Assembly (NCBI GenBank): GCA_016186995.1
Contig: JACPKQ010000007.1
Location: forward strand, 62,001-126,000
DNA from: Deltaproteobacteria bacterium
Lineage (GTDB): Bacteria; Bdellovibrionota; JACOXK01
Direction of reading: 5' to 3'
DNA: 64,000 nt
Shown here one piece after another: positions 2,430-60,626 of the stretch. Position 1 is the stretch's first letter. Every line of letters starts with the position of its first letter. The notes under the pieces are model-generated. The model was given only the letters and a program-made list of their open reading frames with translations, was not told where the DNA came from and did not search any database. Both the position numbers and the translations under genes were made by a program.

Positions 2430-2445
2430 TGGCACAATCATTGCT
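2430..2445 (+). promoter_or_regulatory. Sigma-54 promoter (perfect -24/-12)
   Basis: TGGCACAATCATTGCT matches the TGGCAC-N5-TTGCW consensus exactly, with GG and GC separated by 10 bp. The predicted transcription start is near 2456, about 44 bases before the GTG start of the Kelch lipoprotein. Sigma-54 promoters need an NtrC-type activator. Confidence 0.85.
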
Positions 2446-2499
2446 AGTCTGCCTTCGTGGAAACGCCTATTGTAATTTCTGAAAAAATGAGGGGGTAAC

Positions 2500-3807
2500 G
2501 TGAAAAAAGTTTTCTTTCAAATCTCAATGATGCTTTATGTTTCATTAACATTTGTGGGCTGCAACTGGTTTGACAACGATGATTCTAATGATGCTCCTTT
2601 TTTATCCACCTTGGGAGGTATTGCAAGCAGAATACATGATATGCCCCATCCATTTTCTCAGATTAAAACCACAAATGTGAATAACAATGAAATTTTTATA
2701 AAAGGCACTGTCAGTCCAGATGGGAGTACTTTTGAAGATAGGGCTTATAAGTATAAAGATCAAGGTAACGAATATGTTGAGATCAATTTTGCAAGCTCCA
2801 GAGAGGATCTTGGAAATGGCAGACAACAATTCAGTCAAACGTTGGTATCCGGTCCGGGAGGACCTGTTGTGCCCACGGACTCTGTGCTGATTATTGGCGG
2901 AATTACATCGAAGGGTATTTCCAATACAGCTGAATTTTATAATCCCTCTGAAAATGTGATTAAATCTTTAGGGAATTTAAAAGTTGCTCGTTACGGCCAC
3001 ACCGTCACTGAGATCAAAAATTCAGGGACACCCTTAGATGGACAGTTTTTGGTCGTGGGGGGAATGGGAGTGGGTCAAGGCCTTGTAAGAAATGAGTTGG
3101 TTTCAACGATTGAATTGTTTGATCCTATGACAGGAACCTTTAGCGTTTTAAATGCCCAACTCAAAGTTGGTCGTGAGCAACACACGGCTACGCGTTTGGC
3201 AGATGGTCGTGTTCTCATTACAGGCGGACGAACCTCTAGTGGCGTGAGCAATTCGGGGGAAATTTTTGATCCGGCGACAGCGACATTTACTGAGATTCCC
3301 AATGCAATGGCGGATGAACGTGTTTTTCATACAGCACTCTATTTAGATAATAAAACTCCTACTGATTCAGCAGATGATGCTGTTTTGCTCGCGGGCGGTC
3401 AGGATTCCATGGGTTTGGTTAATGACTCTGCTGATTTTTTTAATCCTGCAACAGGACTTTTTCAACCGGTCAATAGCATGATTCCGCAGCCCATTTATCA
3501 GCATGCTGCCACAGCACTTCCTGCAACTTCACCGCATGATGCTGTTTTGACGGGGGGGATGACAAAAATGCCAACCTTTGACGAAAGTTCATCAGGAGTG
3601 ACTTTACATATCACAAATCAGGTTGTTGTCTTTGATTACACACATACATCGGCTGGCCCTGACGGATTCTTCACGCAAACCAGAGATATGCTCAAAAAAA
3701 GAGCCATGCACAGCACCGATTCTATGGGAACCAATAAACTTGTGATTTTGGGGGGTGTCGATGAAACTGCCCTTGCTCACACGACAGGTGAAGAGTACGG
3801 ATTTTAA
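2500..3807 (+). CDS. Kelch-repeat lipoprotein
   Basis: 435 residues from a GTG with a G-rich Shine-Dalgarno about 8 bases upstream. A lipobox (TFVGC) at residues 18-22 marks it as a lipoprotein; an Asp/Asn-rich stretch follows. From about residue 125 there are roughly five or six Kelch-type blades, each with a paired glycine (IIGG, VVGG, ITGG, LAGG, LTGG, ILGG) and a downstream FxP/FNP turn. These should form a beta-propeller of the galactose-oxidase central-domain type. No catalytic residues are evident, so a binding or adhesion role is likely. It has its own sigma-54 promoter. Confidence 0.88.
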   Translation: MKKVFFQISMMLYVSLTFVGCNWFDNDDSNDAPFLSTLGGIASRIHDMPHPFSQIKTTNVNNNEIFIKGTVSPDGSTFEDRAYKYKDQGNEYVEINFASSREDLGNGRQQFSQTLVSGPGGPVVPTDSVLIIGGITSKGISNTAEFYNPSENVIKSLGNLKVARYGHTVTEIKNSGTPLDGQFLVVGGMGVGQGLVRNELVSTIELFDPMTGTFSVLNAQLKVGREQHTATRLADGRVLITGGRTSSGVSNSGEIFDPATATFTEIPNAMADERVFHTALYLDNKTPTDSADDAVLLAGGQDSMGLVNDSADFFNPATGLFQPVNSMIPQPIYQHAATALPATSPHDAVLTGGMTKMPTFDESSSGVTLHITNQVVVFDYTHTSAGPDGFFTQTRDMLKKRAMHSTDSMGTNKLVILGGVDETALAHTTGEEYGF

Positions 3808-3833
3808 ATCTTAAGCGAATCTGCTTTTTATAA

Positions 3834-3851
3834 ATATGACATAGATCATAT
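3834..3851. promoter_or_regulatory. CRP/FNR-like inverted repeat
   Basis: ATATGACATAGATCATAT is a perfect 6-6-6 inverted repeat with the TGA-N6-TCA core bound by CRP/FNR-family regulators. It lies about 75 bases upstream of the radical SAM gene. A close relative precedes the malic enzyme gene at 24139-24156. Regulator identity is inferred. Confidence 0.45.
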
Positions 3852-3871
3852 TATTTCACCTACATGAGCGT

Positions 3872-3887
3872 ACGATTTATAAATCGT
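3872..3887. promoter_or_regulatory. 16-bp perfect palindrome, possible operator
   Basis: ACGATTTATAAATCGT is a perfect palindrome 20-40 bases upstream of the radical SAM start. It could be an operator for the pathway or, followed by a T-rich run, a weak terminator. Confidence 0.4.
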
Positions 3888-3913
3888 TTTCTTTTATTGA
3901 GGAGATATTGTTG

Positions 3914-5842: not shown

Positions 5843-5865
5843 ATCTTCTTTCCTTTTTTTTAAAT

Positions 5866-5894
5866 ATTTTAACACGCACTTAATATTGACGCAA
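5866..5894 (-). promoter_or_regulatory. Sigma-70-type promoter for the acyl carrier protein
   Basis: On the minus strand a TTGCGT -35 and TAAAAT -10 are separated by 17 bp. The -10 sits about 24 bases before the ACP start codon. The KAS III gene starts divergently about 40 bases away, so the two share one control region. Confidence 0.5.
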
Positions 5895-14484: not shown

Positions 14485-17400
14485 TTAAGCTGCTTTTTTA
14501 AGCTGTTCTTCTTTAATGATACGTTTTCGGGGAATTCTAAAGGTGAATGTAGAACCTTTTCCATAAACACTTTTGACACAGATATTTCCTCCATGCAATG
14601 CAACAATCCTCTTGCAAAGAAAAAGTCCTAATCCAGACCCTTTTTCAGACTTTTCTACAGGCATTTCTGGAGTTTGGAACCTGTCAAAAATATGAGATAT
14701 TTTTTCTTGCGAAATCCCTTGTCCTGTATCTGTAACAGAAACCTCAACAAACTCTTCTCCATTTTCTTTGATAGCTCTAGCTTTGAGAGTGATGGTACCA
14801 CCCAATGAAGTAAATTTTAAAGCATTGATTAAGAGATTTTCAATAACTTCTCGAATACGATCTGGATCACACGTCATGTTTTCAACAAGATCCTCTATTT
14901 TAAGATTTATGTGAATACCTCGACTCTGGGCAATTATTTTAGTATCTTCAAAAACATTCCTGATAAGCTCTTTCAGAAAAACATTTTTATATTGGAGAGA
15001 AAATTTTTCAGAATCCAGCTGAGAGATGTTAAGAAATTGCTCTGTTAGTCTCGTCATTCTTTGTGTTTGTCGTGATATAATATCTAAAAACTTCCCATGA
15101 TGTCTTGCCGGCATGGTGGAGAAAGATTCAATACAATGTTGAATAATCATGAGTGGATTTTTAAGGTTATGGGAACAAAGTCCAAAGAATACATCTTTAA
15201 GGTTAGTAAGTGTTTTGAGTTTTTCGTAAGCCTGTTTAAGCTCTTCCATTTTCTCTTGAATAACTTCATGTGTCTTTGTAAGTTCTTGAGTTCTTAAATT
15301 TACCTTTTCTTCCAAAGATCGACGGAGTTGATCTAATTCATTGAAAGCCAGAGAGTTTTGAATAGCAATAGCTACTTGTGTCGCAAATACATTAAGTATT
15401 TCTAAATCATCTTTTGTAAAAAGGTTTGTAATAATTCTATTATCAATATAAATGATTCCCAATGTTTCTTTTTCAACTTTTAAAGGCACGCACAGAACAG
15501 ATCTTAGCCCGTATTTGGTAACAGATTTACTTGTCTTAAATTGAGGATCTGTTTGTGCATCGATGACAACAATGCCTTTGGCTTCCTTATAGACCTTTTG
15601 GAGTATTTTTTGACTTAAAGAGAATTCATCCCCTGAGACTTGTGAAGTATCCACATGTCTTGAAATACGAATTTGAAGTTTTCCATCATTATCTTTTAAC
15701 ATGATAAAACCCCTCTCCCCTCCAAAGAGTTCAATAAGCGATTCCATCACGCTTGAAAGTAAAGTGGGCAGGTGACGAATGGAACTTAAATAATTACTGA
15801 CTTTGATAATGGTTTCTAATCGACGATTCCGCTTAACTTTTTCCAGCTGCATATCTTTTCTCTGAATGAGTTGTTGATACTTTGAGCAGAGAAGATTGAG
15901 ATGATACTGATCATCACACTCCTCAAAAATATCTTTGGCAAGGTAAAGATAATGTATGGCGTTAGATTCAGCTTGTGCAAGAAGAAGTTCAGCATAGGAA
16001 AAATAGGTTTGTCCTAATAGATTCTTTGCCCCCAGCTTGTGTAGTGATTCAATGCTTTTTTTATAAACTCGCTTTGCTTGTGCATGTTTTCCAAAGGCTG
16101 TACAGATATCCCCATAAACGCGTAAAGCCCAACCACCATGGTTTGGATACCGCTGAACTTTTAAAATCTGTTTTCCCATTTTCCAGACTTTCTTTTTAAG
16201 TTCTTTATCTTTTTTTTCTTTCCATTTTTCAAGATAGGCTTCCGCTAAAGTAAGTGGGGCACCTTGAACATAGCCGATGCGTATTTTGAATTTTTTGATC
16301 AGTCCTGTTGCCTTTTCTCCATATTCAATAGCCTTCTCAAAATTATGAAACAGCAAATACACCGCTGCCGCTGTGTCATAAAGTATTATTTGCCCAATGA
16401 CATCCTTAATCTCATCAATCATTTTCAGAGTTTGATGGATACACTTAAATGCCTTTTCTTTATTTCCTCTTAAAGCTTCAAGAAGACCTATCCATGGTAA
16501 GATTTTTGTCCTAAAGGAAATATCCTGGACTTCGGTAGCTATATTGAACGCTATTTTGAAATTTTCTAAAGCTTTTCGTAAATCTCCTTTGATCCACCAA
16601 CACAACGCTTTAAAACCGATTGCATTAGAAAGCTCCCACGCATCACCAATTTTCTCACACCCCTCAATGGCTTTCTCTGTACACTCAATGGCTTTATCCG
16701 GATATCCATTATGATAATAGAAAATACCCATACAAGAATGAGTTTGGGCAACACCAAAGACATCGGCATTTTTTATATGAATAGCCAGGGCTTTTCTAGC
16801 ATAATGAAGAGCTCTTTTCTTAAAAGGGGTTACTGCCAAATACACACTGTAAATTGATGAAGCTTGAGCTACTTCTTTTTCTTGTCCAACATCATCGGCA
16901 ACATTTAAATAGCGCTGACAAGAAAGAAAGCCCTTTATGGGAGTGACAAACCAGTAAGTTAAACTAAGGGCCCGATGGATCCTATTTTGTTCTTGAAAGA
17001 TTTTTGCCTGTTTTGAATGCTTTTTTCTTCCAAAGAAATAACGAGGGAATCGTCTATGAAAAAAGCGCATCATGAAAGTTTTTAAAAATGCCAAGACAAG
17101 CCCCGGGGTAGAAGAAGGCATTCTTGCGCCAAGAAATTGCAGGGCTTTTTCAGCATTTTCTATAGATTTTTCATAAGCCCCTTTTCGGAAAAAAAGATCT
17201 CCGCGTTTTCGATACAATCGGCACTTATCTAAAACTGACACTTTTTTTAGAAGAAGATCAGAGTAAATCTTTTCTGCGTCGCTATAATTTCCAATAAGAA
17301 GATTGATATCTGCTTTTTCTTCTAAAACTTCATCTTTAAGAACAAACTCATCTGACCGCATGAATGTTAATGCTCGATTGAAAAAAACAAGGGCTTCTTG

Positions 17401-25769: not shown

Positions 25770-25785
25770 TGGCATCTGATTTGCA
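25770..25785 (+). promoter_or_regulatory. Sigma-54 promoter (one mismatch)
   Basis: TGGCATCTGATTTGCA differs from TGGCAC-N5-TTGCW only at the sixth base; the GG-to-GC spacing is exactly 10. The predicted start is near 25796. It drives the HEADH lipoprotein gene, with a REP-like element inside the leader. Confidence 0.75.
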
Positions 25786-25832: not shown

Positions 25833-25872
25833 AGAGGGTCGCGGGAATGACATGTCAAAGAAGGCTATGAGA

Positions 25873-26733
25873 ATGGGGTATCGGGTTTACATTCTATTTT
25901 TTTGTTCCTTTTTATTATTGTGGGGGTGTGGTGGTAATACAGATGGGCGAAGCCCATCGAGTGCACATCAACTTTTACCAACAGGAACCGCTCAAGCCCA
26001 CAATTCAAATTGTTTTGTAGAGAACTACAGAGGGTTTGATTTAAGATGTTTAAGTCCGCACAATGCTTCCCAAAGTCTTAAAGACGACATGGTCAAAGAA
26101 TGGCTTGATTTTTTAAGGTTTGACACCCATCAATACGATTTTCTTGGGGCTGAAAAAGATCCGTTTACCTTTGTACTTAATAGAGCTGATATTTTTACCT
26201 ATCTTGCAGATGATGATGTTTATCGAGATATAAAAACCTCCTATTATGACCCGCAAGATTTTTATAGCCACATAGGAAATGCAAGTGGTGTGAATATTTA
26301 TGGATTACAAGAAAAAGTAGTAGGCATTTTTCCACTCGCTTTTTTAGATATTCAATATTGGCAAAGCCCACGTTTTTTAAGTCAGGAATCCATTCAAATA
26401 TTACAAAATAGTTTTTTATTACCCCTTAAGCAAAGTAATGTACATCGTGCTATGGGAGCAGCTCTTTTACTTCATGAAGCAGATCATTCAACGTATGGGC
26501 CACATCAAACCCAGGTAGGATTGAGTGATCCTTATGGACTTCAAATGCAGTATCTTATAGAAGTTGCTTTAAGTGGACATCACCCACTTTTAAATCAGTG
26601 CTTTGATCGAAAGCAGATCATTCAAGAAGCCCTTGTTCTAGGAGATTCAAATATGAATCAACAAGAGTTTGATAATTATCACGCTTCACTTCTTCTACGT
26701 CTTGCTACTTTTTACTCTCAAGCCTGTCCTTAA
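25873..26733 (+). CDS. Lipoprotein with HExxH zinc motif (HEADH)
   Basis: 286 residues if started at the ATG 8 bases after AAGAAGG; in-frame ATGs at 25852 and 25867 are alternatives. A lipobox (LLWGC) puts the lipidated Cys at residue 19. The only recognisable motif is LLLHEADHSTYGPH, with H201, E202 and H205 as in zincin metallopeptidases; a third ligand is not evident. It shares an N-terminal lipobox, HExxH motif and sigma-54 promoter with the genes at 39321 and 53081. Peptidase activity is inferred. Confidence 0.75.
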   Translation: MGYRVYILFFCSFLLLWGCGGNTDGRSPSSAHQLLPTGTAQAHNSNCFVENYRGFDLRCLSPHNASQSLKDDMVKEWLDFLRFDTHQYDFLGAEKDPFTFVLNRADIFTYLADDDVYRDIKTSYYDPQDFYSHIGNASGVNIYGLQEKVVGIFPLAFLDIQYWQSPRFLSQESIQILQNSFLLPLKQSNVHRAMGAALLLHEADHSTYGPHQTQVGLSDPYGLQMQYLIEVALSGHHPLLNQCFDRKQIIQEALVLGDSNMNQQEFDNYHASLLLRLATFYSQACP

Positions 26734-29327: not shown

Positions 29328-30128
29328 ATGTCACTCAGAAAGTCGATATTTGTTTTAGTGACTGTATGTGCTGGATTGTTTTATCAGCCTGTGAATGCAG
29401 CGGAAAGTGTGGGCCTGTTAGGTAGCACTCTTCGTGAGCATGCACGAGAAATCCACAGAGCTTCAGAAAGAATGGTAGCTCAAGCCGAAGCCTACAAAGG
29501 CTATTACGATTCTGATAACTTTCATGTAGTTTATCAGTTAAGAGACTTAGAAAGCTCAGCCAGACGCTTCCGTAGCCGGGTAGATTCGTGGTTGCAAGAT
29601 CCTTCTCTTGCCTACAACGAATTTTATGATGTTGCAGGCGATCTTGAAGATGTAAAAATGGTAGCTTCACGAGCTACTTTTTTTCGTTTCATTATGGATG
29701 ATTTGAATCGAGCAAGTGAAAGCGTAAGAGAGCTTCGTTTGTATTATTATGGTTATGGTTACCGTCATTGGGATGATCATTATAGAGATGATCGTGAAAG
29801 ACGTCGCCATGAAGAACGTGAACGTCGTGAGCGTGAAAGAAGAGACCATTGGGATCGAGATGGACATCGCTACGATCGAGATCGTCATGAACGTGAAAGA
29901 AGAGATCGCGAACGTTGGGACAGAGACCGTCGTGATCGTGAAGAGCGCGACAGAAATGAACGTGAACGTCGTGAAAGAGAAAGACGTGAACGTGAAGATC
30001 GTGAAAGGCGCGATCGTGATAACCGAGATCGAGACCGTTGGGATAGAGACAGAGATCGTGATCGCGGAGATCGAGACCGTCGCGATCGTGAAGACCGTGA
30101 AAGACGCGATAGAAATCGCCATAGATAA
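29328..30128 (+). CDS. Secreted helical protein with Arg/Asp/Glu repeat tail
   Basis: 266 residues with an AAAGGAGG site and a signal peptide ending at VNAA (residue 25). Residues 26-140 are a helical domain paralogous to the upstream gene, followed by a Tyr/Gly/His linker (YYYGYGYRHW). About 115 residues then consist almost entirely of Arg, Asp and Glu in short RD/RE units (RDRERRDRE-type), a mixed-charge low-complexity tail. The repeats leave other frames open as artefacts. Such a tail should be disordered and could bind polyanions, metal or the cell wall; no function is known. Confidence 0.8.
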   Translation: MSLRKSIFVLVTVCAGLFYQPVNAAESVGLLGSTLREHAREIHRASERMVAQAEAYKGYYDSDNFHVVYQLRDLESSARRFRSRVDSWLQDPSLAYNEFYDVAGDLEDVKMVASRATFFRFIMDDLNRASESVRELRLYYYGYGYRHWDDHYRDDRERRRHEERERRERERRDHWDRDGHRYDRDRHERERRDRERWDRDRRDREERDRNERERRERERREREDRERRDRDNRDRDRWDRDRDRDRGDRDRRDREDRERRDRNRHR

Positions 30129-39206: not shown

Positions 39207-39222
39207 TGGCACATGAATTGCT
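39207..39222 (+). promoter_or_regulatory. Sigma-54 promoter (perfect -24/-12)
   Basis: TGGCACATGAATTGCT matches TGGCAC-N5-TTGCW exactly. The predicted start is near 39233, giving a structured leader of about 88 bases before the lipoprotein ATG. Confidence 0.85.
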
Positions 39223-39320: not shown

Positions 39321-40835
39321 ATGAACATTAAAAATTTAATATTATTTTTTGTTTTTGGACTATTTCTTGTTTCATGTAATAGTAATGATAGTAACGATCA
39401 GGTTAATAACCTTTCAGCTGAAGAAGCATTTACCACATTAGCTGGTTCAAAAATCCCAGCAAATGAGATTCAGGCATTATTAAAAGTTCAGACATTTCAG
39501 GACATGTTTCAGCTTATTGACAATGACCCGAGTGTTGAACTTGTAGCTCTTCCGACAAGATTGGGAACAAGAACAGCTATTAACATACCAGATAATTATT
39601 TCTCAGAAGATCCAGTTCTTACTGAAAAACTGGGAGAAAATAAAGGAATATATGTTGCAATTGGAAAAAAAGTTTATACTCAAAAGGTCGCAAAAATACT
39701 TGTAGTACGGGATGTATCTCTTATGACACTACGCCATGAATGGTTTCATCATTTAGTAGCTAAACATTCCGGGGACATCCTATCTTATTATTCATACATA
39801 CATAAAAAACAAATGAGTAATGGTGATATTGCGGGAGAATTTAACGAACAAATTATAGAAAAACTTGATGCTTTATCTCGAAACGAAGAATTAAATGGTG
39901 GGCTTACGGAGGAAGAATTTACGGAATTTTATTTTCTGAATATACAGCGCAGTATTCTTTTTTGTTTGTTCAATTTATTTTCACATATTAGTGAAATTGA
40001 AGACTATTTTTTCTTTCTTCAATATCGACACAATTATGAAGTGACCAAATTTGAATTAGTTGAAATTAAATTTGCTTTGAATGATTACTTTAAGAAGATA
40101 GATGAAAGTATAGAAAGAATAAAAGAATTTGTTCAGGAGATGCAACAAGAATTAAAAACACACCTTGGAAAAGAAACTCTTCCTCAATATATTCAAGCTT
40201 ATTTAGATGCTTGGAATAAACAAAACGAAGTTTATGAAGAGCAAAGAATTATTGTTCAAAATGAAATAAAAAAATTAGAAAATGAGAATACTCTAGTATT
40301 TGTGAAAATTTACTCACATGAAATATCTCTCTTTGCTGATCTCAATCTGGATGGTGCAGTCAATCTTACTGATCGTTCAATTCTTGAAAATCTCGTGACT
40401 GATCCAGATATGACAGTTGATGAATACATAAACAATACAGCAGACTTAGATGGAGATCATGTTATTACTCAAAATGACTTAGTATGGATGGATCATCTAT
40501 TAGAAGTTATGCCACTTGATGAGTTTTCATCTTTTCAACAGCTATTGGCTGCCCTCGCAAAAGAAAGAGGTTATGAAATTGATTTTACAAGTCTTCATAC
40601 AAATACCAACATCAATAGAGGTTTTTCTACAATCAAGAGATGTGCATACATTGCTCTCTATCTTGTATTAAAGGATGAACGTTCCAAAAATAAGGATATA
40701 CAGTTCATTCGCTTTACAGAGGATGAGTATCAATACAGTCAAAGTGAAAAACAAATATTTATTAAGCCTGCATGGATATCTGAGATAGAAGATTTGTCAG
40801 ATTTTTTCTTTGCCTTGCCAGAGAAATCAGACTAA
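39321..40835 (+). CDS. Lipoprotein with HExxH motif and dockerin-like repeats
   Basis: 504 residues. A lipobox (FLVSC) places the lipidated Cys at residue 19. LRHEWFHHLVAKH carries H139, E140 and H143, a zincin signature. A coiled-coil region spans about 225-320. At about 345-405 there are two calcium-loop units like dockerin type I or EF-hand repeats (DLNLDGAVNLTDRSIL and DLDGDHVITQNDLVWM). No cohesin was recognised in the window. It is probably a surface-anchored metalloprotease-like protein. It has a sigma-54 promoter. Confidence 0.8.
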   Translation: MNIKNLILFFVFGLFLVSCNSNDSNDQVNNLSAEEAFTTLAGSKIPANEIQALLKVQTFQDMFQLIDNDPSVELVALPTRLGTRTAINIPDNYFSEDPVLTEKLGENKGIYVAIGKKVYTQKVAKILVVRDVSLMTLRHEWFHHLVAKHSGDILSYYSYIHKKQMSNGDIAGEFNEQIIEKLDALSRNEELNGGLTEEEFTEFYFLNIQRSILFCLFNLFSHISEIEDYFFFLQYRHNYEVTKFELVEIKFALNDYFKKIDESIERIKEFVQEMQQELKTHLGKETLPQYIQAYLDAWNKQNEVYEEQRIIVQNEIKKLENENTLVFVKIYSHEISLFADLNLDGAVNLTDRSILENLVTDPDMTVDEYINNTADLDGDHVITQNDLVWMDHLLEVMPLDEFSSFQQLLAALAKERGYEIDFTSLHTNTNINRGFSTIKRCAYIALYLVLKDERSKNKDIQFIRFTEDEYQYSQSEKQIFIKPAWISEIEDLSDFFFALPEKSD

Positions 40836-48912: not shown

Positions 48913-48982
48913 CTCTTATTTTGAGTAATAATTGGGCATTTTTTTGACTTTTAGGGTTTTCTCCGAGATACTTCAGAAAGAA

Positions 48983-50917
48983 ATGAGAGATCTCTCTCGA
49001 AAAGACGACGTTCTTGTCATATCTGATGATTCTCAATTTTTGAAATCATTTCTTGAAAAGTTTCAAGATCCTTTATTTTCTTTTTCCTATTTTTCAAGTA
49101 AAGAAGAGGCTCAAGATTTTTTGAAGGTCCGAAAACCGCTTATTATTTTAGGTGGAGAAAACTTTGTTTCCTTTCTTGAAGAAGCAAAAAAAGTTTCGCC
49201 TTATTCTGTAAGAGTTTTTTTGTCTGAAGAAAATAATTTAGAAACAATTCAAGAGGCCATTAATCAAGCTGATGTTTATCGTGTCATTTCTTCTGATTCT
49301 GATCTGATTCATTTAAGAAAAACACTTCGAGAGGTAAGAGAATACGGCATGATTTATAGTGAAAACCAAAAACTTCTTCAAAAAGCAGAAGAGCAATCTT
49401 TAGAATTAGATCAGATGATTCTTTCTTTAGAAAAAAATATTGAAGAAAGAACAAAAATACTAGCAGAATCTCGTCTTGAAATTTCTCAAACTGAAGCTGA
49501 GTTAGAGCATCTTAATAAATTTCTTAAGAACATTAGTATGGCTATGACTATAGAGGATATTAAAGTATGGCTTGAAAAAGAGCTTAAAAACATTCTTCCT
49601 ATTGATGAACTTTCTTTAGTGGTGAACGAGCCGCAACCACGGGGTTTTAAGAATGCCGATAAATTTACGGTGGCTTTTCCTCTTATTTACGGAACAAAAC
49701 TTTTAGGACATTTTTATTTACGTGGAAAAGATGAAGAACTTTTAAAACAAGCAGAACTTCTTCTAGGGTTTTTACAACAAGTAACTCATACTATTGCTAT
49801 TACGGTTGATCGTATTCAATCTTTTGAAGCGATTGCTCAAGATAAAAAGGCATGGGAGGCTTCTTTTGATGCGATTGTCGATCCGGTTGCTATTTTAAAT
49901 CATCATTATGAAGTGATTCGTGCGAATTCAGCTTATGCTCGTGCAAGTGGAACCTCTCTTCAAAAACTTTTTGGAAGAAAATGTTATGAAGTTTTTGAAA
50001 ATAGAAAAACATTTTGTGAGGGGTGTTATGTAAAAGAAGCATTTTCAGCTAACCAAGGTGTCATGTCTGATATTTCAAGTTTAAAACAAAATAAAAAGTA
50101 TAAGGCAACAAGTTACCCAGTTTTGGACAAAAACGGAAAAGTAAAATTTATTGTTCAGTATTATAAGGATGTGACTCGAGAACACAGTTATAGGGATCAG
50201 CTTGTAAGAGCTGAAAAAACAGCAGAATTGGGCATTTTAGCAGGAAGTATTGCCCATGAAATTAATAATCCGTTAGGGGGTATTTTGGCTTTTGTGCAAA
50301 TTCTTAAGTCTGAACTACAAGAAAAAGAACCACTTTTTGAAGATATTCTTGATATTGAAGAAGCGGCACTTCGTTGTAAACGTATTATTGAAAATCTGCT
50401 TAAATTTGCAAGACAGTCTAGAGATGAGAAAAGAAAAAAATATTACCTTCAAAATATTTTAAAACTTTCTATTGCGTTGATTGAGTTTCAAGCCAAACAT
50501 TTTAATATTTCAATCACAAAAAAAATATCTTCAAAACCTATTTATATTTTAGGGCACTTCAATCAACTCTGGCAGGCAATTGTAAATATATTAGAAAATG
50601 CCATTGAAGCTGTAGTTGAAAAAAAAGAGGGGGCAAAAAAAATAAAAATTACTGTGCAAACCTTTTCGAAGAAAACGGAGAAAGGTATAGAAAAATGTGT
50701 ACGTATTGCTCTTATCAATAATGGTAAACCCATTTCAAAGTCTGAGTTATCAAAAATTTTTGATCCTCTTTACACCACAAAAGACCCACAAAAAAATCCA
50801 GGGCTTGGGCTTTCCATGAGTCAGAGTATTGTACAAGATCATGGTGGGCAATTAAGAGTGTATCAAACCCCCAAAAAAGAGACAGTATTTGCCATAACGC
50901 TGCCTGTTTTTGAGTAA
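48983..50917 (+). CDS. PAS-containing histidine kinase with degenerate receiver
   Basis: 644 residues from the ATG at 48983; a TTG 17 codons earlier has no better ribosome site. Residues 10-120 fold like a receiver domain but the phosphoacceptor Asp is replaced (KPLIILGGENF). A long coiled coil, a GAF-like region and a PAS domain with a Cys-rich loop (CYEVFENRKTFCEGC) follow. HisKA has SIAHEINNPLGG and HATPase has IVNILENAIEA and NPGLGLSMSQSI. It is the likely partner of the NtrC-type regulator 147 bases downstream. Confidence 0.92.
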   Translation: MRDLSRKDDVLVISDDSQFLKSFLEKFQDPLFSFSYFSSKEEAQDFLKVRKPLIILGGENFVSFLEEAKKVSPYSVRVFLSEENNLETIQEAINQADVYRVISSDSDLIHLRKTLREVREYGMIYSENQKLLQKAEEQSLELDQMILSLEKNIEERTKILAESRLEISQTEAELEHLNKFLKNISMAMTIEDIKVWLEKELKNILPIDELSLVVNEPQPRGFKNADKFTVAFPLIYGTKLLGHFYLRGKDEELLKQAELLLGFLQQVTHTIAITVDRIQSFEAIAQDKKAWEASFDAIVDPVAILNHHYEVIRANSAYARASGTSLQKLFGRKCYEVFENRKTFCEGCYVKEAFSANQGVMSDISSLKQNKKYKATSYPVLDKNGKVKFIVQYYKDVTREHSYRDQLVRAEKTAELGILAGSIAHEINNPLGGILAFVQILKSELQEKEPLFEDILDIEEAALRCKRIIENLLKFARQSRDEKRKKYYLQNILKLSIALIEFQAKHFNISITKKISSKPIYILGHFNQLWQAIVNILENAIEAVVEKKEGAKKIKITVQTFSKKTEKGIEKCVRIALINNGKPISKSELSKIFDPLYTTKDPQKNPGLGLSMSQSIVQDHGGQLRVYQTPKKETVFAITLPVFE

Positions 50918-51064
50918 AATTGACAGAAAAGTAATCAAAATGATACTGTGAATTTAGGGTTATGGTTGTGTTGCTGTTCTCAATTTTTCAATCGTACGTG
51001 TAGAAGTAGGGTTGCTTGTTGATTACTTTTCATCCCTTATGGAGAGGAGACGGGCAAGACTATT

Positions 51065-52447
51065 ATGTCTTTAAAAAAAATTCTCATTATCGATGACGAA
51101 TCTTCCTGCCGAATAGCTCTTGGAAAATTTCTCACAAAAGAAAATTACGATGTTAAATCTGTTCGAAAAGGTGAAGAAGCTTTAGAACTTTTTAAAAACC
51201 AACATTTTGATCTTGTCATTACTGATTTAAAAATGCCAGATGTAGATGGCATGGAAATTGTTTCTTTCATTTCAAAAAATTTTCCAGAAACACATTCTAT
51301 TGTGATGACGGGTTTTGGAAGTATTGAATCTTCTATTGAAGCTTTAAAAAGAGGAGCCTTTCACTACATTACAAAACCGTTTCGTCTTGAAGAAATAAAA
51401 AATCTTGTTCAAAAAGCAATAGGTGAAAAAGAACTTCAAAAAGCAAATCAACTTTACAGAAAAGAGCTTCAAGCAACTTATCAGTTTGAAAACATTATAG
51501 GCGAAAGTCGTAAAATGAAAGACGTTTTTGAACTTATTGAAAAGGTGGCGGTTACTGATTGTACGGTGCTTATAACGGGCGAAAGTGGTACTGGGAAAGA
51601 ACTTGTGGTACGGGCTATCCATTATAATAGTTTAAGGTCTAAAAAACCCTTGGTTACAGTTAATTGTGGAGCTATTCCTGAAAGCCTTCTTGAATCAGAG
51701 CTTTTTGGGCATATGAAAGGTTCGTTCACAGGGGCCATTTCTAATAGAGAGGGGCGTTTTGAAACGGCAGACAAGGGGACCCTTTTTTTAGATGAAATTG
51801 GAAGCATGCCTTTCGCTTTACAAGTAAAACTTCTTCGTGTTCTTCAAACAAAGTCTTTTGATCCTGTCGGAGGAAAAACAAGACAAGTTGATGTTCGAAT
51901 TATAGCTGCTACGAATCGTGATTTAGAGCAAGCAGTGAACAAAAATGAGTTTCGTGAAGATCTTTTCTATCGCTTGAATGTTATTCCTATTCACATTGCT
52001 CCTTTAAGAGAGCGAAAAGAAGATATACCCCTGTTGATTGACCACTTTGTTAAAAACTTTAATAAAAGAAATCCTAACAAGAAGGTATCAGGTATTTCAG
52101 GAGAAGCCCTTCGTATTATGCTCGATTATGATTGGCCGGGTAATGTAAGACAGCTTGAAAATATTATTGAAAGAATTTTAATACTCAAGGAAAAAGGGGG
52201 TATTCTTCCAAAAGACTTGCCACTTAAAATGTATCAAGATCAAAATGGTAAAAAACACTTTGATGTTTCTATTCCAGAAGATGGTCTTGATTTTAATAAT
52301 ATGATTGATGAATTTGAAGAGAATATTTTAAGACAGGCGCTTCATCAAACAAAGTGGAATCAAAACAAAGCTGCAAAACTTTTAAAATTAAAACGCACCA
52401 CTCTTATCGAAAAACTCAAAAGAAAAAAAATCTCAAAACCTCTTTAA
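51065..52447 (+). CDS. NtrC-family sigma-54-dependent response regulator
   Basis: 460 residues: receiver (1-120, Asp54 in LVITDLKMP), AAA+ domain (about 140-380, Walker A GESGTGKE, Walker B GTLFLDEIGSM) and a C-terminal Fis-type HTH (NQNKAAKLLKLKRTTLIEKLKRKKI). The loop that contacts sigma-54 reads GSFTGA where GAFTGA is usual; the key Thr is kept. It should activate sigma-54 promoters, and a perfect one lies 0.6 kb downstream. The upstream kinase is its probable partner. Confidence 0.96.
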   Translation: MSLKKILIIDDESSCRIALGKFLTKENYDVKSVRKGEEALELFKNQHFDLVITDLKMPDVDGMEIVSFISKNFPETHSIVMTGFGSIESSIEALKRGAFHYITKPFRLEEIKNLVQKAIGEKELQKANQLYRKELQATYQFENIIGESRKMKDVFELIEKVAVTDCTVLITGESGTGKELVVRAIHYNSLRSKKPLVTVNCGAIPESLLESELFGHMKGSFTGAISNREGRFETADKGTLFLDEIGSMPFALQVKLLRVLQTKSFDPVGGKTRQVDVRIIAATNRDLEQAVNKNEFREDLFYRLNVIPIHIAPLRERKEDIPLLIDHFVKNFNKRNPNKKVSGISGEALRIMLDYDWPGNVRQLENIIERILILKEKGGILPKDLPLKMYQDQNGKKHFDVSIPEDGLDFNNMIDEFEENILRQALHQTKWNQNKAAKLLKLKRTTLIEKLKRKKISKPL

Positions 52448-52786
52448 AAAATACAAAAGTCAGTAAATTATTTTATGCTGTTTGTTGTTTTAGAAATATC
52501 AAACTTCCAAGCCATGAGGAGGCATAACCATATCTCCTAATGAGCCCGCTGTAAGATTGAGAATGTTGAAGTCCACCCTCTCCCTAGCCCTCTCCCATCA
52601 AGGGAGAGGGAATAGCTGATAACTACCAGGAAGTGACATCGGAATTCACTGCTATAAACCAGGGGACCTCCTCGGCCACTTCTGTGGCCTCGAGGTGAAA
52701 TGCACGCAGTGCATTTCATCCTGGTGTTCGCGAGATGGTGATTCATCTGCTTGAGAAATGTTTGACAGTCTTGTAACGTGGGCCGG
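52448..52786. other. Intergenic region with palindromes
   Basis: It holds REP-like hairpins (next entry) and no convincing gene. An open frame on the minus strand (52537-52821) reads through the repeats and looks like an artefact. Confidence 0.5.
52566..52735. repeat. REP-like hairpin cluster
   Basis: Inverted repeats include CCCTCTCCC/GGGAGAGGG (52588-52610) preceded by a second CCCTCTCCC, GGCCAC/GTGGCC, and GAAATGCAC/GTGCATTTC with a 3-base loop. The segment CATCCTGGTGTTCGCGAGA near 52719 differs at only two positions from CATCCTGATGTTCGCAAGA near 39182. Confidence 0.6.
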
Positions 52787-52960
52787 ATGAAAAAAGCCAA
52801 AATTCGAGATTTCTCATTCAAAGATTTTATCTTGGATCAACTTTCTGACTTGCCCGAGACGATTGCTTCTCCAATGTTTAGCAGCTACGGTCTTTACTCC
52901 AACGATATATTCTTCGGGATCATAAACGATGGCATCCTTAAGATTAAAGCAACCTGTTAG
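52787..52960 (+). pseudogene. Truncated TfoX N-terminal domain
   Basis: 57 residues (MKKAKIRDFSFKDF...). LSDLPETIASPMFSSYGLYS and FFGIINDGILKIKA match the first half of TfoX_N, a 90-residue competence-related domain, whose second half (after the ILKIK strand) is missing. The frame ends in a TAG; the downstream DNA holds no continuation in any frame. It has no strong ribosome site. I read it as a gene remnant. Confidence 0.6.
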
Positions 52961-53031
52961 ATTTGTGACGCTGTCTAATATTTGAATACTTTTGAGTATG
53001 GAAAAGGGGTACGTTTAAGCTTGAAAAGGGG

Positions 53032-53047
53032 TGGCACGTGAGTTGCA
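53032..53047 (+). promoter_or_regulatory. Sigma-54 promoter (perfect -24/-12)
   Basis: TGGCACGTGAGTTGCA matches the consensus exactly, including the G after CAC. The start is near 53058, about 23 bases before the lipoprotein ATG. Confidence 0.9.
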
Positions 53048-53080: not shown

Positions 53081-54154
53081 ATGACATACCGAAAGCGTTT
53101 GTTAGCGATTCTTTTAGGAATTTTTTCCTTAGCGATTTTAGGCTGTGGGGCCAGAACCTCAGAAGCTCCTAAGCCTTTTTACTCTGAATTTCTCTGGACG
53201 GCGCAAAACATAGACTCGAAAGAGCCCATGCAATTTGCCAGCATGAGTGAGAATCAAATAGTAGAAACTTTAAGAACAAAATATGGAATAAAAGTGATTA
53301 TTTTAAGTAGTGCTGAAACCCCCAACCCTCACTTAACGATTGGAAATTTAAGAGAAGACAGAGATCTGGTCTCCTATTTTGAACAGGACGCAGAAGATCA
53401 AATTTGTGTAAAAACAGGAACTTGTAAAGAAGAAAGTGAAGTTGCAGCAGGACAGTTCTTATATCCTTATGAACATAGGCATTCCTCTGTAGACAATTTA
53501 GAAGCAGGCACTCATCGTCCAGGCTTAAATAAACCTATTATTGTTTTAACAAAAAGTTCGACTCGCCGGCATATGATTCATGAGTTTATGCATTATTATT
53601 TAGGGACTTTAACCAACGATGATGTTCCTCAAACAATAGATGGAGTGCTTCATTGTAATCGCTGCTCTCGAATTGTAGAAACATTGCAACTCAATCGCCT
53701 TCTTTCTGAGAAACAAAAATTTCATGATGAGAATATCAACACATTTTCTTCTCAGGCCCATTATAATTTAGATATGGAGTTAGAAAAAATAAGAACACAA
53801 ATAATCATCAATAATTTCACAACTCTTTTGAAAAAAGGAGAAGAGATTGATATTCATCGTTTTTGCTTTGATCATAGAAAAAAGTTGGGTTTTAACACAG
53901 AAGAAGCCGCGCAAGATTTGGGAGCCATTGTTGGATATGTAAAGGAAATTTCTAAGAAAATGAAAGATATGAATATGGAAACCGTAGCCAAAAATATCCA
54001 AAAAAATATTAATTTATATTCTCCAGATGTCCAATCCACACTTTCTAAATTAGAAGATCTTTTTGAAAAGATTAACTCTAAAATAACGGAGTCCAAAGGA
54101 TGGATCAGCTCTATTGGGATACCCGGTTCAATATGGGAGGAAGATCTTAACTAA
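53081..54154 (+). CDS. Lipoprotein with HExxH zinc motif (HEFMH)
   Basis: 357 residues from the ATG after a G6 run (a TTG six codons earlier is less likely). The lipobox AILGC places Cys22 as the lipidated residue. RRHMIHEFMHYYLG has H167, E168 and H171 of a zinc metallopeptidase. A Cys pair (LHCNRCSRIVETLQ) follows. The rest is helical and charged. The region before the motif (PIIVLTKSS) parallels KILVVRDVS in the lipoprotein at 39321, so they may be homologous. It lies 0.6 kb after an NtrC-type gene. Confidence 0.8.
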   Translation: MTYRKRLLAILLGIFSLAILGCGARTSEAPKPFYSEFLWTAQNIDSKEPMQFASMSENQIVETLRTKYGIKVIILSSAETPNPHLTIGNLREDRDLVSYFEQDAEDQICVKTGTCKEESEVAAGQFLYPYEHRHSSVDNLEAGTHRPGLNKPIIVLTKSSTRRHMIHEFMHYYLGTLTNDDVPQTIDGVLHCNRCSRIVETLQLNRLLSEKQKFHDENINTFSSQAHYNLDMELEKIRTQIIINNFTTLLKKGEEIDIHRFCFDHRKKLGFNTEEAAQDLGAIVGYVKEISKKMKDMNMETVAKNIQKNINLYSPDVQSTLSKLEDLFEKINSKITESKGWISSIGIPGSIWEEDLN

Positions 54155-54353: not shown

Positions 54354-54752
54354 ATGGAGCGGGTTTTTAAAATTGGCCAGGTAGCTAAGGTGGCTCAAGT
54401 CAATATTCAAACCGTGCGGTATTATGAAAAGTTAAATCTTTTGAAACCTCAGGGACGAAAACTTTCTGGATATAGGCTCTACGATATGCACGCCATTCTC
54501 CAGCTCAGGTTTATAAAAAAAGCGCAAGCTCTTGGGTTTACACTCTCTGAAATAAAAGCCCTCTTAGAGCTCAGTGTATCTCATTCAAACGAGTGCAATT
54601 CTGTAAGAAAAAAAGCGACTGATAAGATTTCTGAAATTGAAGATAAAATAAAACTTTTAAACAACATGAAAAAGACACTGAAAGAGCTTGTTCATTGTTG
54701 TGAAAAAAAGAAAAAAACGGAGAAATGCCCCATATTAAAAAGTTTAAAATAG
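54354..54752 (+). CDS. merR: MerR-type metal-responsive regulator
   Basis: 132 residues with AGGAGGG upstream. The winged helix (FKIGQVAKVAQVNIQTVRYYEKLNLL) and coiled coil are typical. Cysteines 81, 115/116 and 125 match the spacing of the Hg(II) ligands of Tn501 MerR (82, 117, 126). It both represses and activates the adjacent promoter. Mercury is the best-supported metal, but sequence alone cannot exclude others. Confidence 0.9.
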   Translation: MERVFKIGQVAKVAQVNIQTVRYYEKLNLLKPQGRKLSGYRLYDMHAILQLRFIKKAQALGFTLSEIKALLELSVSHSNECNSVRKKATDKISEIEDKIKLLNNMKKTLKELVHCCEKKKKTEKCPILKSLK

Positions 54753-54761
54753 GAGGAGTGC

Positions 54762-55088
54762 ATGAAAAAAATAACTAGTTCTGTAGCTATTATAAGTTCA
54801 GTATTTGCTTCAGCCTGTTGTCTTTTACCCGTTCTTTTGGCTGGGGTTGCAGGTATTGCAGGGGTGGCTTCGGTTTTTGAAAAACTTCGACTTCCTTTTA
54901 TCGTCGTTGCTACTCTATTTCTTGGTTATGGATTTTATATAGCTTATTTTCAAAAGAAAAAAGAATGTGCTCCAGGTGAAGCATGTTCGACATCACAAGG
55001 TAAACACAAACAGCGCATTATTCTATGGGTCATTACGGTACTCGTAACCCTTGTCATTACGTTTCCATATTGGATTCAACTCTTATAA
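54762..55088 (+). CDS. merT: MerT-like mercuric transport membrane protein
   Basis: 108 residues, three predicted TM helices. The first has the paired Cys19-Cys20 (FASACCLLPVLLAG) and the cytoplasmic loop has Cys69 and Cys75 (ECAPGEAC), the arrangement in MerT that passes Hg(II) inward. AGGAGG upstream. Confidence 0.9.
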   Translation: MKKITSSVAIISSVFASACCLLPVLLAGVAGIAGVASVFEKLRLPFIVVATLFLGYGFYIAYFQKKKECAPGEACSTSQGKHKQRIILWVITVLVTLVITFPYWIQLL

Positions 55089-55103
55089 GGGAGGAAAAGG
55101 ATC

Positions 55104-55415
55104 ATGAAACTTATTTTAATCTCATTTTTGATTGTCAGCATGGGGCTTTTAGCTCTGGGGTGTACGAATAAGAAAAAAGCTGTTCCCGAAGGGGCAGTAC
55201 TTAAAGAGCTCACATTTAAGGTAGATGGCATGACCTGCGGGGGGTGTGAATACAATGTCAAAAAGTCACTTTTAAAACTAGACGGTGTTGTTGAGGCATC
55301 AGCCGACCATAAAAAAGGAGAAGCTACGGTTTCTTTTGTTGAAGGAAAAGTAACTGAAAATCAATTGATCGAGGCTGTCAATTCGAGTGGCTATAAGGCC
55401 ACATTACAAAAATAG
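55104..55415 (+). CDS. merP: MerP-like mercury-binding lipoprotein
   Basis: 103 residues. The heavy-metal-associated domain has GMTCGGC (42-48; Cys45 and Cys48). Unlike usual soluble MerP, the N-terminus ends in a lipobox (LALGC, Cys20), so it is probably membrane-anchored in the periplasm. Confidence 0.9.
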   Translation: MKLILISFLIVSMGLLALGCTNKKKAVPEGAVLKELTFKVDGMTCGGCEYNVKKSLLKLDGVVEASADHKKGEATVSFVEGKVTENQLIEAVNSSGYKATLQK

Positions 55416-55424
55416 GGGGATTTT

Positions 55425-55904
55425 ATGAGCACATGTTGTTCCATAAATAATAAAAAAGAAAAAGTATTAACTCCGGGAAACTGTCCAACGTGTCAGGCAA
55501 AAGGAAAAAAAGTGGGACTTATCACCCTTTTTCAACTCATCAAGCGCCCCTTTCAAAAAGAGATTAACCGAAGCAGTCAATATTACTTTTGTAGTTCCAA
55601 AGAATGTGAGGTTGTTTACTTTTCAAATCAAAACAATGACTTTTTATTTAAAAAAGAACATCTCATTGTAAAAGTTGGGCAGAAAGAAAGCACTCCAAAA
55701 CAAGTGTGTTACTGTTTTGATTATACCCATCAAGACATTTTAGAAGAGGTGCAAAAAACAGGAAAAAGCACAGCCACACAAATCATTACCCAAAATATTA
55801 AAGAAGGGCTTTGCGCCTGTGAAATGAGAAATCCTCAAGGAAGCTGTTGCCTGGGCAATGTAAAAGAAGCTGAAAATCAGGCCACTGAAAAATGTAAAAA
55901 ATAA
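55425..55904 (+). CDS. CopZ-like metallochaperone with BFD-type Fe-S domain
   Basis: 159 residues with about 16 Cys, including CC, CPTC, CYC, CAC and CC clusters. The C-terminal part resembles the BFD-like [2Fe-2S] domain (CYCFDYTHQDILEEVQKTG...CACEMRNPQGSCCLG), as in the N-terminal half of archaeal CopZ. It ends the mer-like operon and could carry electrons or bind the metal. There is no merA reductase here. Confidence 0.8.
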   Translation: MSTCCSINNKKEKVLTPGNCPTCQAKGKKVGLITLFQLIKRPFQKEINRSSQYYFCSSKECEVVYFSNQNNDFLFKKEHLIVKVGQKESTPKQVCYCFDYTHQDILEEVQKTGKSTATQIITQNIKEGLCACEMRNPQGSCCLGNVKEAENQATEKCKK

Positions 55905-57286: not shown

Positions 57287-57299
57287 CGCTTAACATTCG

Positions 57300-57347
57300 G
57301 CTTAAACCTTTATGAAGTATTGAAATCATTTTCATAAAGGTTTAAGC
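57300..57347. terminator. Long hairpin terminator
   Basis: GCTTAAACCTTTATGAA and TTCATAAAGGTTTAAGC form a perfect 17-bp stem with a 14-base loop, 13 bases after the membrane protein stop. It is followed by an AT-rich tract and is likely the terminator. Confidence 0.8.
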
Positions 57348-57355
57348 TATTTTAT

Positions 57356-57514
57356 ATGGTTGAAACATGTCTTCAATTTATCTCTCATGAAGGTTTTCAA
57401 TTATTCGTGGCCATTTTTTTAGGGGGCCTCATCGGATTAGAACGAGAGATGAAGGGAAAGCCTTCGGGGCAGGTCATTGGAGCTTTTAACTTTTACTCTT
57501 CTTTCTTGTCTTGA
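57356..57514 (+). pseudogene. Truncated MgtC-family membrane protein
   Basis: 52 residues. LFVAIFLGGLIGLEREMKGKPSG matches the first helix and conserved GLEREMKGKPSG loop of MgtC/SapB proteins, which normally exceed 140 residues. Homology stops after VIGAF, where the frame runs into the reverse complement of the mlaD 3' end. This is a broken gene at a junction. Confidence 0.8.
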
Positions 57515-58362: not shown

Positions 58363-59120
58363 GAGTCTAATGGCTCCCCTGTTATAAATCCTTTTACTAT
58401 TTCATTATCGGTTTTTTTGATATTTTCTTTTGTTTCCTCGATAATAATTTTTCCCCTATAAACCATGGCGATACGGTCGGTGACCTCAAAGGCACTTTCC
58501 ATATCGTGAGTAACAATAATACAAGTGATATTTTTTCTCTTATTAAGATCCATAATAATTTCGTTAATTTTTCGGGTGTTGTAAGGATCAAGCCCTGTTG
58601 TGGGTTCATCAAAAAGAATAATTTCAGGTTCTAAAATAGTAGCTCGTGCTAGGCCAACGCGTTTTTTCATACCACCACTTAAATCTGATGGCATTAGGTT
58701 CTGTTTTTCTGAAAGCCCTACAAGCGCTAATTCTTCTGAAACTCTTTTTTGTATTTCTTCTTCTGTGAGTGTTGTATGTTCTCTTAAAGGGTAGGCTAAA
58801 TTTTCACCTACTGTAAGAGAATCAAAAAGAGCTCCACCTTGAAAAAGCATGGCAATTCTTTTTCGAACTGGGATATATTCTTCTTCTTTTAAATGACTAA
58901 TATTGTGGCCATCAAAAATAATTTCTCCTTCATCAGGTTGTAAAAGTCCTATAAAATGTTTTAACATAACGGATTTTCCAATGCCTGAGCCACCTATAAT
59001 AGTAATAACCTCACCCTTTTTGATAGTGAGGTTAGCACCATCATAAACGATATTATCTCCAAATTTTTTGTGGAGATTTTTGACTTCAATAATGTTTTCA
59101 ACTTTTTGATCTTTATTCAT
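58359..59120 (-). CDS. mlaF: MlaF-like ABC transporter ATPase
   Basis: 253 residues: Walker A GGSGIGKS, signature DLSGGMKKRVGLARA, Walker B IILFDEPTTGLDP and a switch His (VTHD). It powers lipid transport with MlaE. Overlaps mlaD and mlaE by 4 bases each. Confidence 0.95.
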   Translation of the reverse strand: MNKDQKVENIIEVKNLHKKFGDNIVYDGANLTIKKGEVITIIGGSGIGKSVMLKHFIGLLQPDEGEIIFDGHNISHLKEEEYIPVRKRIAMLFQGGALFDSLTVGENLAYPLREHTTLTEEEIQKRVSEELALVGLSEKQNLMPSDLSGGMKKRVGLARATILEPEIILFDEPTTGLDPYNTRKINEIIMDLNKRKNITCIIVTHDMESAFEVTDRIAMVYRGKIIIEETKENIKKTDNEIVKGFITGEPLDS

Positions 59121-59896
59121 AATTCCATGAAGAGTTTTGTTAAAAAGAAGTCAGCTATCAGTATTGAAATAGTACCCAAAACAACAGATTGCGTTGTTGA
59201 GATTCCCACCCCTTGGGTTCCTCCCTTTGTGGTTAAACCTTTATAGCAACCGATCATAGAAATAATAATGGCAAAGAAAAAAGTTTTTCCCATTCCTGCA
59301 AAAAAGTCTTTAAGAATGATTGTTTCAGTAATTTTATTGTAATAAAATTGAGGGGTCAAATTAAGTTCGGTGTAACAAATAATCATACCTCCTATAAGAC
59401 CAATCAAAATTCCAAATACAGTAAGAATAGGAAGAGCAATGAGTGTTGCTGAAATGCGTGGAATCACAATTTTTTTTATGGGGCTTGTTCCTAAAGCCCG
59501 AATAGCATCAATTTGTTCTGTCACATTCATAGAACCTACTTCTGCTGCAATTCCTGCACCCACGCGTGCACACACCATAAGACTTGTAAAAACAGGGCCT
59601 AGCTCTCGAATGAAAGAAAGTGCAATAACCTTAGGAACGTAGAGCTGACCACCAAATTTCTCAAGACCATAGGCAAATTGAAGGGCAATAACCATGCCTG
59701 TTGAAAGACAAGTAACCACGACAAGGGGAAGTGATTCATTCCCAATAGATTGAATTTGATTCAATGTGAGTTGTATATATTGAGGAGAATGAAACATGTC
59801 TTTAAATGTTTTAGCTGAAAGTCTCCCCAGTCCCCCTAGAAACTCTAGAAAGTCAGTCACAACTTTTCCAAATTTTTCGAAAAAAAATTCAACCAT
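59117..59896 (-). CDS. mlaE: MlaE-like permease
   Basis: 259 residues with about five TM segments. ICARVGAGIAAEVGSMNVTEQIDAIRALG is the family signature, where the GSM-EQIDA loop contacts the ATPase. It is the membrane core of the Mla lipid transporter. Confidence 0.95.
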   Translation of the reverse strand: MVEFFFEKFGKVVTDFLEFLGGLGRLSAKTFKDMFHSPQYIQLTLNQIQSIGNESLPLVVVTCLSTGMVIALQFAYGLEKFGGQLYVPKVIALSFIRELGPVFTSLMVCARVGAGIAAEVGSMNVTEQIDAIRALGTSPIKKIVIPRISATLIALPILTVFGILIGLIGGMIICYTELNLTPQFYYNKITETIILKDFFAGMGKTFFFAIIISMIGCYKGLTTKGGTQGVGISTTQSVVLGTISILIADFFLTKLFMEL

Positions 59897-59898
59897 TT

Positions 59899-60399
59899 TT
59901 ACTCTTTGTTATCCACTGTTTTAAAAGTATGAAGAAGGTTTTCAAAATCTTTCACATCTTTTTCATAGTTTCCTGGGCGCGCTGTATAGGTAAAATCATA
60001 AAGGCAATAATCTTTTCTTAAGACATAAATATTCATTTTAACTTGAACGCCATCAAGACTTCCTGTTGCAACAGTGTGTTTTGCTTTTCTATTTGAGAGT
60101 GTTACAAATTCCTCAACCTCAATTTCAACATCATCAACCCCGCGAAGAAGATTTTGAGAAAGAATGTCTAAAGAGGCGTTATTATATCTTTCACAAAGAG
60201 AATTAATGTAAATGGTAGCCGCAGATCGTAAGGATGAAAATGAAGCATCGGCTTGGGTATCTTGAATTGCTTCCCAGTGCTTAGGAAGTTTACCTATCTT
60301 ATAGTTTTCGCTTTTTTTCTCTTCAACATTGATATCCAAGGAGGCACAGCCCAGCACGCTTGAAATCATTAGAATGTAAAACAGCTTTTTGTACTTCAT
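59899..60399 (-). CDS. Lipoprotein of the mla operon
   Basis: 166 residues with a lipobox (SVLGC, Cys18). The mature domain, with paired Cys (SLCERYNN and KDYCLYD), resembles small outer-membrane lipoproteins. It leads the operon, two bases before mlaE. It may be a partner in outer-membrane lipid transfer, but no MlaA or MlaC family match is seen. Confidence 0.8.
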   Translation of the reverse strand: MKYKKLFYILMISSVLGCASLDINVEEKKSENYKIGKLPKHWEAIQDTQADASFSSLRSAATIYINSLCERYNNASLDILSQNLLRGVDDVEIEVEEFVTLSNRKAKHTVATGSLDGVQVKMNIYVLRKDYCLYDFTYTARPGNYEKDVKDFENLLHTFKTVDNKE

Positions 60400-60526
60400 G
60401 AAACGTTTACTTCTCTTCTAAGGGCGTATCGGTCTTATCATTTCAATACTTTACAAAGCTTTTTTATATTTTTTTGAAGCCTAAAAGTACTGAAAATATG
60501 CTGCTTCTAGGGGTTTAAGCCAAAGC

Positions 60527-60555
60527 TTTTCAAGTCAAAAAAATGAACTTGAAAA
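60527..60555. promoter_or_regulatory. Inverted repeat, possible sigma-54 activator site
   Basis: TTTTCAAGT/ACTTGAAAA is a perfect 9-bp inverted repeat with an 11-base spacer, about 56 bases upstream of the -24 element. That is the position expected for an enhancer bound by an NtrC-type activator. The rest of 60400-60652 holds no gene. Confidence 0.5.
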
Positions 60556-60610
60556 ACCTTAAAGTCGAATTTTTGACATGGGAGATCACGGAATTATTGG
60601 AAAAATTCTC

Positions 60611-60626
60611 TGGCACAGCTCTTGCT
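60611..60626 (+). promoter_or_regulatory. Sigma-54 promoter (perfect -24/-12) for fliA
   Basis: TGGCACAGCTCTTGCT matches TGGCAC-N5-TTGCW exactly. The start is near 60637, about 16 bases before the ATG. Confidence 0.88.

Follow-up and report, generated by a model that had tools for sequence, protein, structure and literature searches.

Predicted sigma-54 promoters precede genes of surface proteins and an orphan fliA in a flagella-less relative of predatory bacteria

Five elements resembling sigma-54 promoters are scattered over a 64-kb stretch of DNA (hereafter the window, meaning the whole stretch analysed), four of them before lipoprotein genes and one before fliA. We asked whether these elements are likely to be real promoters, what kind of gene they serve in the rest of the genome, and what a sigma-54 element before fliA could mean in a lineage that lacks a flagellum. 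The perfect motif TGGCAC-N5-TTGCW was found at 2430, 39207, 53032 and 60611, and all five boxes lie on the plus strand, 26-98 bp upstream of co-oriented genes. A sequence-only reading of this DNA had given the same five positions, with a Kelch lipoprotein, three HExxH lipoproteins and fliA as targets; the positions and strand (four perfect boxes and one TGGCAT variant) and the target list agree with the boxes and genes found here.

The perfect box TGGCACAATCATTGCT (2430..2445) is followed 54 bp on by the GTG start of the Kelch-repeat lipoprotein gene (2500..3807, plus strand; lipobox FVGC; Kelch_1 5e-18). The variant box TGGCATCTGATTTGCA (25770..25785, plus strand; TGGCAT, with T for C at position 6 as its single mismatch) precedes the gene of an HExxH (HEADH) lipoprotein (25852..26733, plus strand) with an LWGC lipobox-like signal and no Pfam match. 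The perfect box TGGCACATGAATTGCT (39207..39222, plus strand) stands 98 bp before the ATG at 39321 of a second HExxH (HEWFH) lipoprotein gene (39321..40835, plus strand; lipobox LVSC), whose product carries a weak dockerin-like repeat (Dockerin_1 3e-4, slightly under the cut-off). The perfect box TGGCACGTGAGTTGCA (53032..53047, plus strand) lies 33 bp before the gene of a third HExxH (HEFMH) lipoprotein (53081..54154, plus strand); the start of this gene is better placed at the ATG of position 53081, which follows GGGGGG, than at the TTG of 53063. The perfect box TGGCACAGCTCTTGCT (60611..60626, plus strand) is located 26 bp before the gene of a fliA/whiG-family sigma factor (60653..61414, plus strand; TIGR02479 1e-82), the only copy in the genome. 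After a 34-bp gap fliA is followed by the gene of an HD-domain (HD-GYP-like) protein (61449..62117, plus strand; HD_5 7e-44), which is probably co-transcribed with it.

By their motif the window HExxH lipoproteins are candidate zinc metalloproteases, and none of them matched a Pfam or NCBIfam family. The HEFMH family is conserved within the class and beyond: homologues with HExxH intact occur in genomes G002, G003, G007 and G018, with a perfect sigma-54 box before the G007 gene and the TGGCAT variant before a G018 gene. AlphaFold models of two of the HExxH lipoproteins, computed without alignment, reached a pLDDT of ∼40. Downstream of the HEFMH gene, positions 54354-55904 hold a small cluster that looks metal-related (the start of a MerR-like regulator, a small membrane protein, a lipoprotein with a GMTC motif and a cysteine-rich protein), and 29328-30128 encodes a secreted protein with a long low-complexity tail rich in Arg, Asp and Glu, the opposite strand being open as well.

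Next, the chance expectation was examined. Dinucleotide shuffles gave 0.05 perfect copies per window, close to the earlier estimate of 0.06, and the observed four were reached in 0/100 shuffles. With one mismatch allowed, five sites were observed vs 1.83 expected in the window, and 3/100 shuffles reached five. The 25770 site alone is thus poor evidence, and it is backed by the finding that TGGCAT-N5-TTGC is a common permitted variant genome-wide. The mild enrichment of one-mismatch matches is what speaks for regarding the boxes as chance matches, with the genes served by ordinary promoters. Against this stands the genome-wide count. The host genome is a draft of 1.68 Mb, 93% complete, from a small-genome relative of predatory bacteria, and the control was the same motif read backwards. 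A whole-genome scan with comparison of target functions, as the sequence-only reading had proposed, yielded 25 perfect sites vs 0 for the control and 54 sites of the relaxed form TGGCAY-N5-TTGC, again vs 0, and the targets were mostly of the cell exterior. The reading had also considered that the motif might prove equally common inside genes: 24 of the 25 perfect sites are non-coding, with a same-strand gene or RNA-like unit closely downstream, in a genome that is ∼89% coding as judged from the sampled contig. Among the perfect sites, the one where pilP begins (L008) has an ambiguous placement. Of the remaining relaxed sites, 24/29 are intergenic. When aligned, the sites conform to the sigma-54 pattern; position 6 is C or T, and the flanks are rich in T. 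The box was present in 20/20 genomes searched, far above the backwards control in most, and boxes are kept before orthologous genes in other genera. We consider chance very improbable and refuted as a general explanation, and individual sites could be inactive. These results support the five window elements being sigma-54 promoters, predicted to belong to a regulon far larger than five genes.

The machinery for such promoters is encoded. The genome has one RpoN, with the RpoN box ARRTVAKYRD, and approximately eight sigma-54 activators, the G[AS]FTGA loop being readable in five. One activator lies in the window, where the gene of an AtoS-like PAS histidine kinase (48932..50917, plus strand; HisKA, HATPase_c, PAS_4) is followed by that of an NtrC/AtoC-type activator (51065..52447, plus strand; REC, AAA+, Fis HTH and GSFTGA loop; Sigma54_activat 3e-73). 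The 53032 box is found ∼600 bp downstream of this kinase-activator pair (48932-52447), and the ∼585 bp that separate this promoter from the activator gene (52448-53031) form an unusually long gap, with no clear gene inside. A search upstream of 48 boxes for shared activator-binding dyads or k-mers gave none above shuffles. Another signalling gene of the window, at 14485-19632, encodes a 1715-aa protein; inspection of its translation by eye suggests a serine/threonine-kinase-like domain fused, through a large central part, to a histidine kinase.

What do the boxes precede genome-wide? Export calls were made with a home-made rule-based predictor and compared with a background of 166 non-target genes from one contig. 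Measured in this way, lipoproteins made up 9/24 of the perfect-site targets vs 5/166 of the background (P = 2e-6), and exported or membrane proteins 18/24 vs 34/166 (P = 2e-7); for all sites the latter ratio was 33/48 vs 34/166 (P = 1e-9). The proposal of a sigma-54 regulon for surface proteins is borne out by both enrichments, and a surface regulon is supported as the predicted identity of the target set. Many targets have no Pfam family. Among recognizable domains were an M6 InhA-like protease, two subtilases, an AAT-type acyltransferase and Kelch. A further secreted HExxH protein (HEFFH) is encoded behind a TGGCAT box at C19:8651 (L227:500-1560, minus strand). The InhA-like M6 metalloprotease at L237:1918-4185 (catalytic, MAM and VEG domains) was seen immediately downstream of a perfect sigma-54 box. 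Regulatory domains among the targets included PilZ, two GGDEF proteins, a PAS protein and a sigma-54 activator, and pilus domains included an Flp1 pilin, a pilus secretin, T2SSF and PilP. Similar target types were found behind the same boxes in G002, G004 and G005. Exported targets occurred at 43/57 sites with an ORF in G004, G005 and part of G006; the share was lower in G002 (16/33 sites with an ORF).

The sequence-only reading had further described the regulon as tied to motility. In the flagellar sense this part did not hold. FlhA was absent from the window genome and its seven classmates (eight class genomes, one of them 100% complete) and present in seven flagellate members of the phylum; FliG_C was absent from the window genome and 6/7 classmates, with one weak 34.7-bit match in G001. 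The link to flagellar motility is unsupported because FlhA is missing from the class and FliG_C nearly so, and a flagellar sigma-54/FliA hierarchy was rejected with FlhA in 0/8 class genomes. A pilus link in place of the flagellar one is possible. Taken further, the target set could be read as a regulon for pilus-based motility and attachment in a lineage that moves by type IV or Tad pili, which the boxes before the Flp1 pilin, pilus secretin, T2SSF and PilP genes, and those before the PilZ and GGDEF genes, would favour; the majority of targets, however, are lipoproteins or secreted proteins without pilus domains, and we regard this reading as somewhat doubtful.

The fliA gene itself is well preserved. 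The window sigma factor scored 277 bits against TIGR02479 (cut-off 190) and has Sigma70_r2, r3 and r4; the gene is single-copy in 20/20 genomes, and all eight class members carry an intact copy. The fliA matches help to place the organism, probably, near Bdellovibrionota. In 7/8 class members, the window genome with its perfect box included, fliA is preceded at 26-67 bp by a box that departs from the motif by no more than one base; G003 has none within 300 bp. Outside the class, the box also precedes fliA in two phylum members without FlhA, G010 (55 bp) and G018 (∼156 bp, start estimated), and in 0/7 flagellate relatives. Of 80 named fliA loci, just two had a one-mismatch box: L137 and L071, the latter from the organism of G001. 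Presence of a sigma-54 box before fliA is therefore associated with lack of the flagellum. Judged by the gene content of these genomes, fliA is here an orphan sigma factor gene. It is known that sigma-54 drives flagellar genes, fliA included in some bacteria (PMC3930126), and the flagellum is gone in this class; from these two points one might regard the box as the relic of a flagellar hierarchy, in which a leftover sigma-54 promoter precedes a decaying fliA, with the surface genes unconnected to it. Yet the intact, single-copy gene in 8/8 class members, the box kept in seven of them and the lack of a box before fliA in the flagellate relatives examined all weigh against a relic, which we consider unlikely. 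Since the flagellate relatives have no such box, the link was apparently acquired or retained to serve some other purpose and not inherited from their arrangement. FliA-type promoters as a second tier were rejected as a candidate: canonical sigma-28 promoters were at background level in a genome-wide search, as was the Bdellovibrio-type FliA motif in the 366 kb searched.

Two boxes have no downstream ORF and instead precede candidate small RNAs that are conserved across genera. The first, sRNA-A, follows the box at C12:17563 (region L212:1502-1645; RNA L212:1528-1640; fold z -6.5). Its near-invariant 43-nt core GAACACCTTCTGTCRAATTTTACACAACACAACGATACCTTAT recurs behind a perfect box in G002, in G005 and, shorter by one base, in G004 (loci L284, L299 and L324). 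Box and terminator are found in four genomes, the terminator stem varying on both sides, and the covariation amounts to nine pairs, every one within the terminator. When the core was paired with the leaders of sigma-54 mRNAs, 5/152 leaders reached -33 kcal/mol or lower vs 0.18 in 60 shuffles, and two reached -40 kcal/mol or lower vs none in the shuffles. The best pairing (-48.6 kcal/mol) involves nearly the whole core and the start-codon region of the HEFFH gene at L227. Next came L336 of G005, where two stretches of 11 and 12 bp pair perfectly, one of them across the ribosome-binding site, and then the leader of a subtilase of the window genome (L211) and the PilZ mRNA in G002 and the window genome. 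L336 may be the same PilZ gene, its contig ending eight codons in. In a narrow start-codon window, the duplex energy of sRNA-A was not significant vs shuffled RNAs, and single background genes also reached ∼-29. Because of this narrower test and these background genes, the targets are a lead and not proof; with moderate confidence, sRNA-A is predicted to be a trans-acting antisense RNA for sigma-54 mRNAs. The second, sRNA-B, follows the box at C26:19792 (L236:1501-1692) and is predicted to fold into a long hairpin (z -6.6) whose loop is rich in C. Boxes in G002, G004 and G005 also precede similarly shaped hairpins, and one in G001 precedes a related RNA, so that the shape recurs in five class genomes (the other loci being L249, L290, L315 and L327). 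Pairing of the sRNA-B C-rich loop with leaders was not above shuffles and was rejected. An Rfam search of both RNA loci gave nothing at the gathering score.

Taken together, we assign a probability of about 0.82 to the reading that the window elements are sigma-54 (RpoN) promoters of a genome-wide, exterior-dominated regulon of ∼45-50 transcription units whose regulatory outputs would be fliA and small RNAs. The sequence itself shows the boxes and where they lie, the genes of RpoN and its activators, the make-up of the target set, the lack of flagellar export and the conservation. Transcription from the boxes, the signal, the choice of activator, the targets of FliA, the action of the RNAs and whatever predatory or epibiotic role there may be are what we infer from it. 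RNA polymerase with sigma-54 would be held at the boxes until opened by one of the approximately eight NtrC-type activators, the kinase-regulator pair at 48932-52447 being an example of a possible activating pair. The output would comprise lipoproteins and secreted proteases (the M6 InhA-like protease, two subtilases and several HExxH proteins), and also parts of Tad and type IV pili, c-di-GMP proteins (PilZ, GGDEF) and at least one activator. With no flagellum to serve, FliA is most likely a second-tier sigma factor, so that sigma-54 would act on surface genes and on FliA in parallel. Two small RNAs would be further targets, and one of them may base-pair with other sigma-54 mRNA leaders and form an incoherent feed-forward loop.

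This locus offers a concrete case of sigma-54 and FliA, best known from flagella, persisting without a flagellum and tied to exterior genes, to be set beside the much-studied FliA attack programme of Bdellovibrio; a switch for swimming seems to have been re-used for control of the cell surface. The role of an orphan FliA, and whether whole regulons move between sigma factors, become testable. Two candidate families of sigma-54-driven RNAs are offered, and the promoter signature may be used to find contact or predation genes among unannotated lipoproteins.

The regulon had been called undescribed, which is correct in part. That sigma-54 controls the bacterial exterior has been described before (Francke et al., 2011; PMC3162934); this particular regulon, the fliA link without flagella and the small RNAs were not found in the literature searched. 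The points looked for there were the combination in flagella-less bacteria, both RNAs, and conservation of a box upstream of an orphan fliA; the result is not proof of absence. The system of Francke et al. shares sigma-54 promoters tied to lipoproteins, envelope and appendages; there the connection runs chiefly through how envelope precursors are made and transported, and through co-occurrence with flagella, whereas the present case has lineage-specific lipoproteins, secreted proteases and pili, and no flagella. The text of PMC3162934 does not mention Bdellovibrio. In the Borrelia Rrp2-RpoN-RpoS pathway (PMC3037356, PMC2940757), sigma-54 and an NtrC-type activator likewise act on a second sigma factor, and the pathway ends in surface lipoproteins. 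There the lipoproteins are made via RpoS, whereas here the lipoprotein genes carry their own sigma-54 boxes and the second sigma factor is of the FliA/WhiG type. Campylobacter CJnc230 (PMC11187230), an RpoN-dependent RNA that represses mRNA translation in a sigma hierarchy, is comparable with the role that sRNA-A may have; it is processed from a flagellar mRNA, whereas sRNA-A is predicted to be stand-alone, with its own box and no flagellum.

The Bdellovibrio FliA, reported to be essential, drives attack-phase surface, protease and Tad pilus genes (PMC3627812; Tad/flp: PMC5430801). Cell-surface proteins, proteases, a Tad pilus, small RNAs and a FliA beyond a purely flagellar role are common to both systems. 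In Bdellovibrio the FliA motif TTAAG-N16-CCGATA drives such genes, whereas here they are preceded by sigma-54 boxes, as is fliA, and FliA motifs do not exceed background. We tentatively suggest, as a scenario with perhaps one chance in three, that in this flagella-less class of Bdellovibrio relatives the surface, protease and pilus programme of the Bdellovibrio FliA passed to sigma-54, unless sigma-54 had it from the start; sigma-54 would also have taken over the orphan fliA and would carry sRNA-A for tuning its target mRNAs, among them the messages for PilZ and for a secreted HExxH protein.
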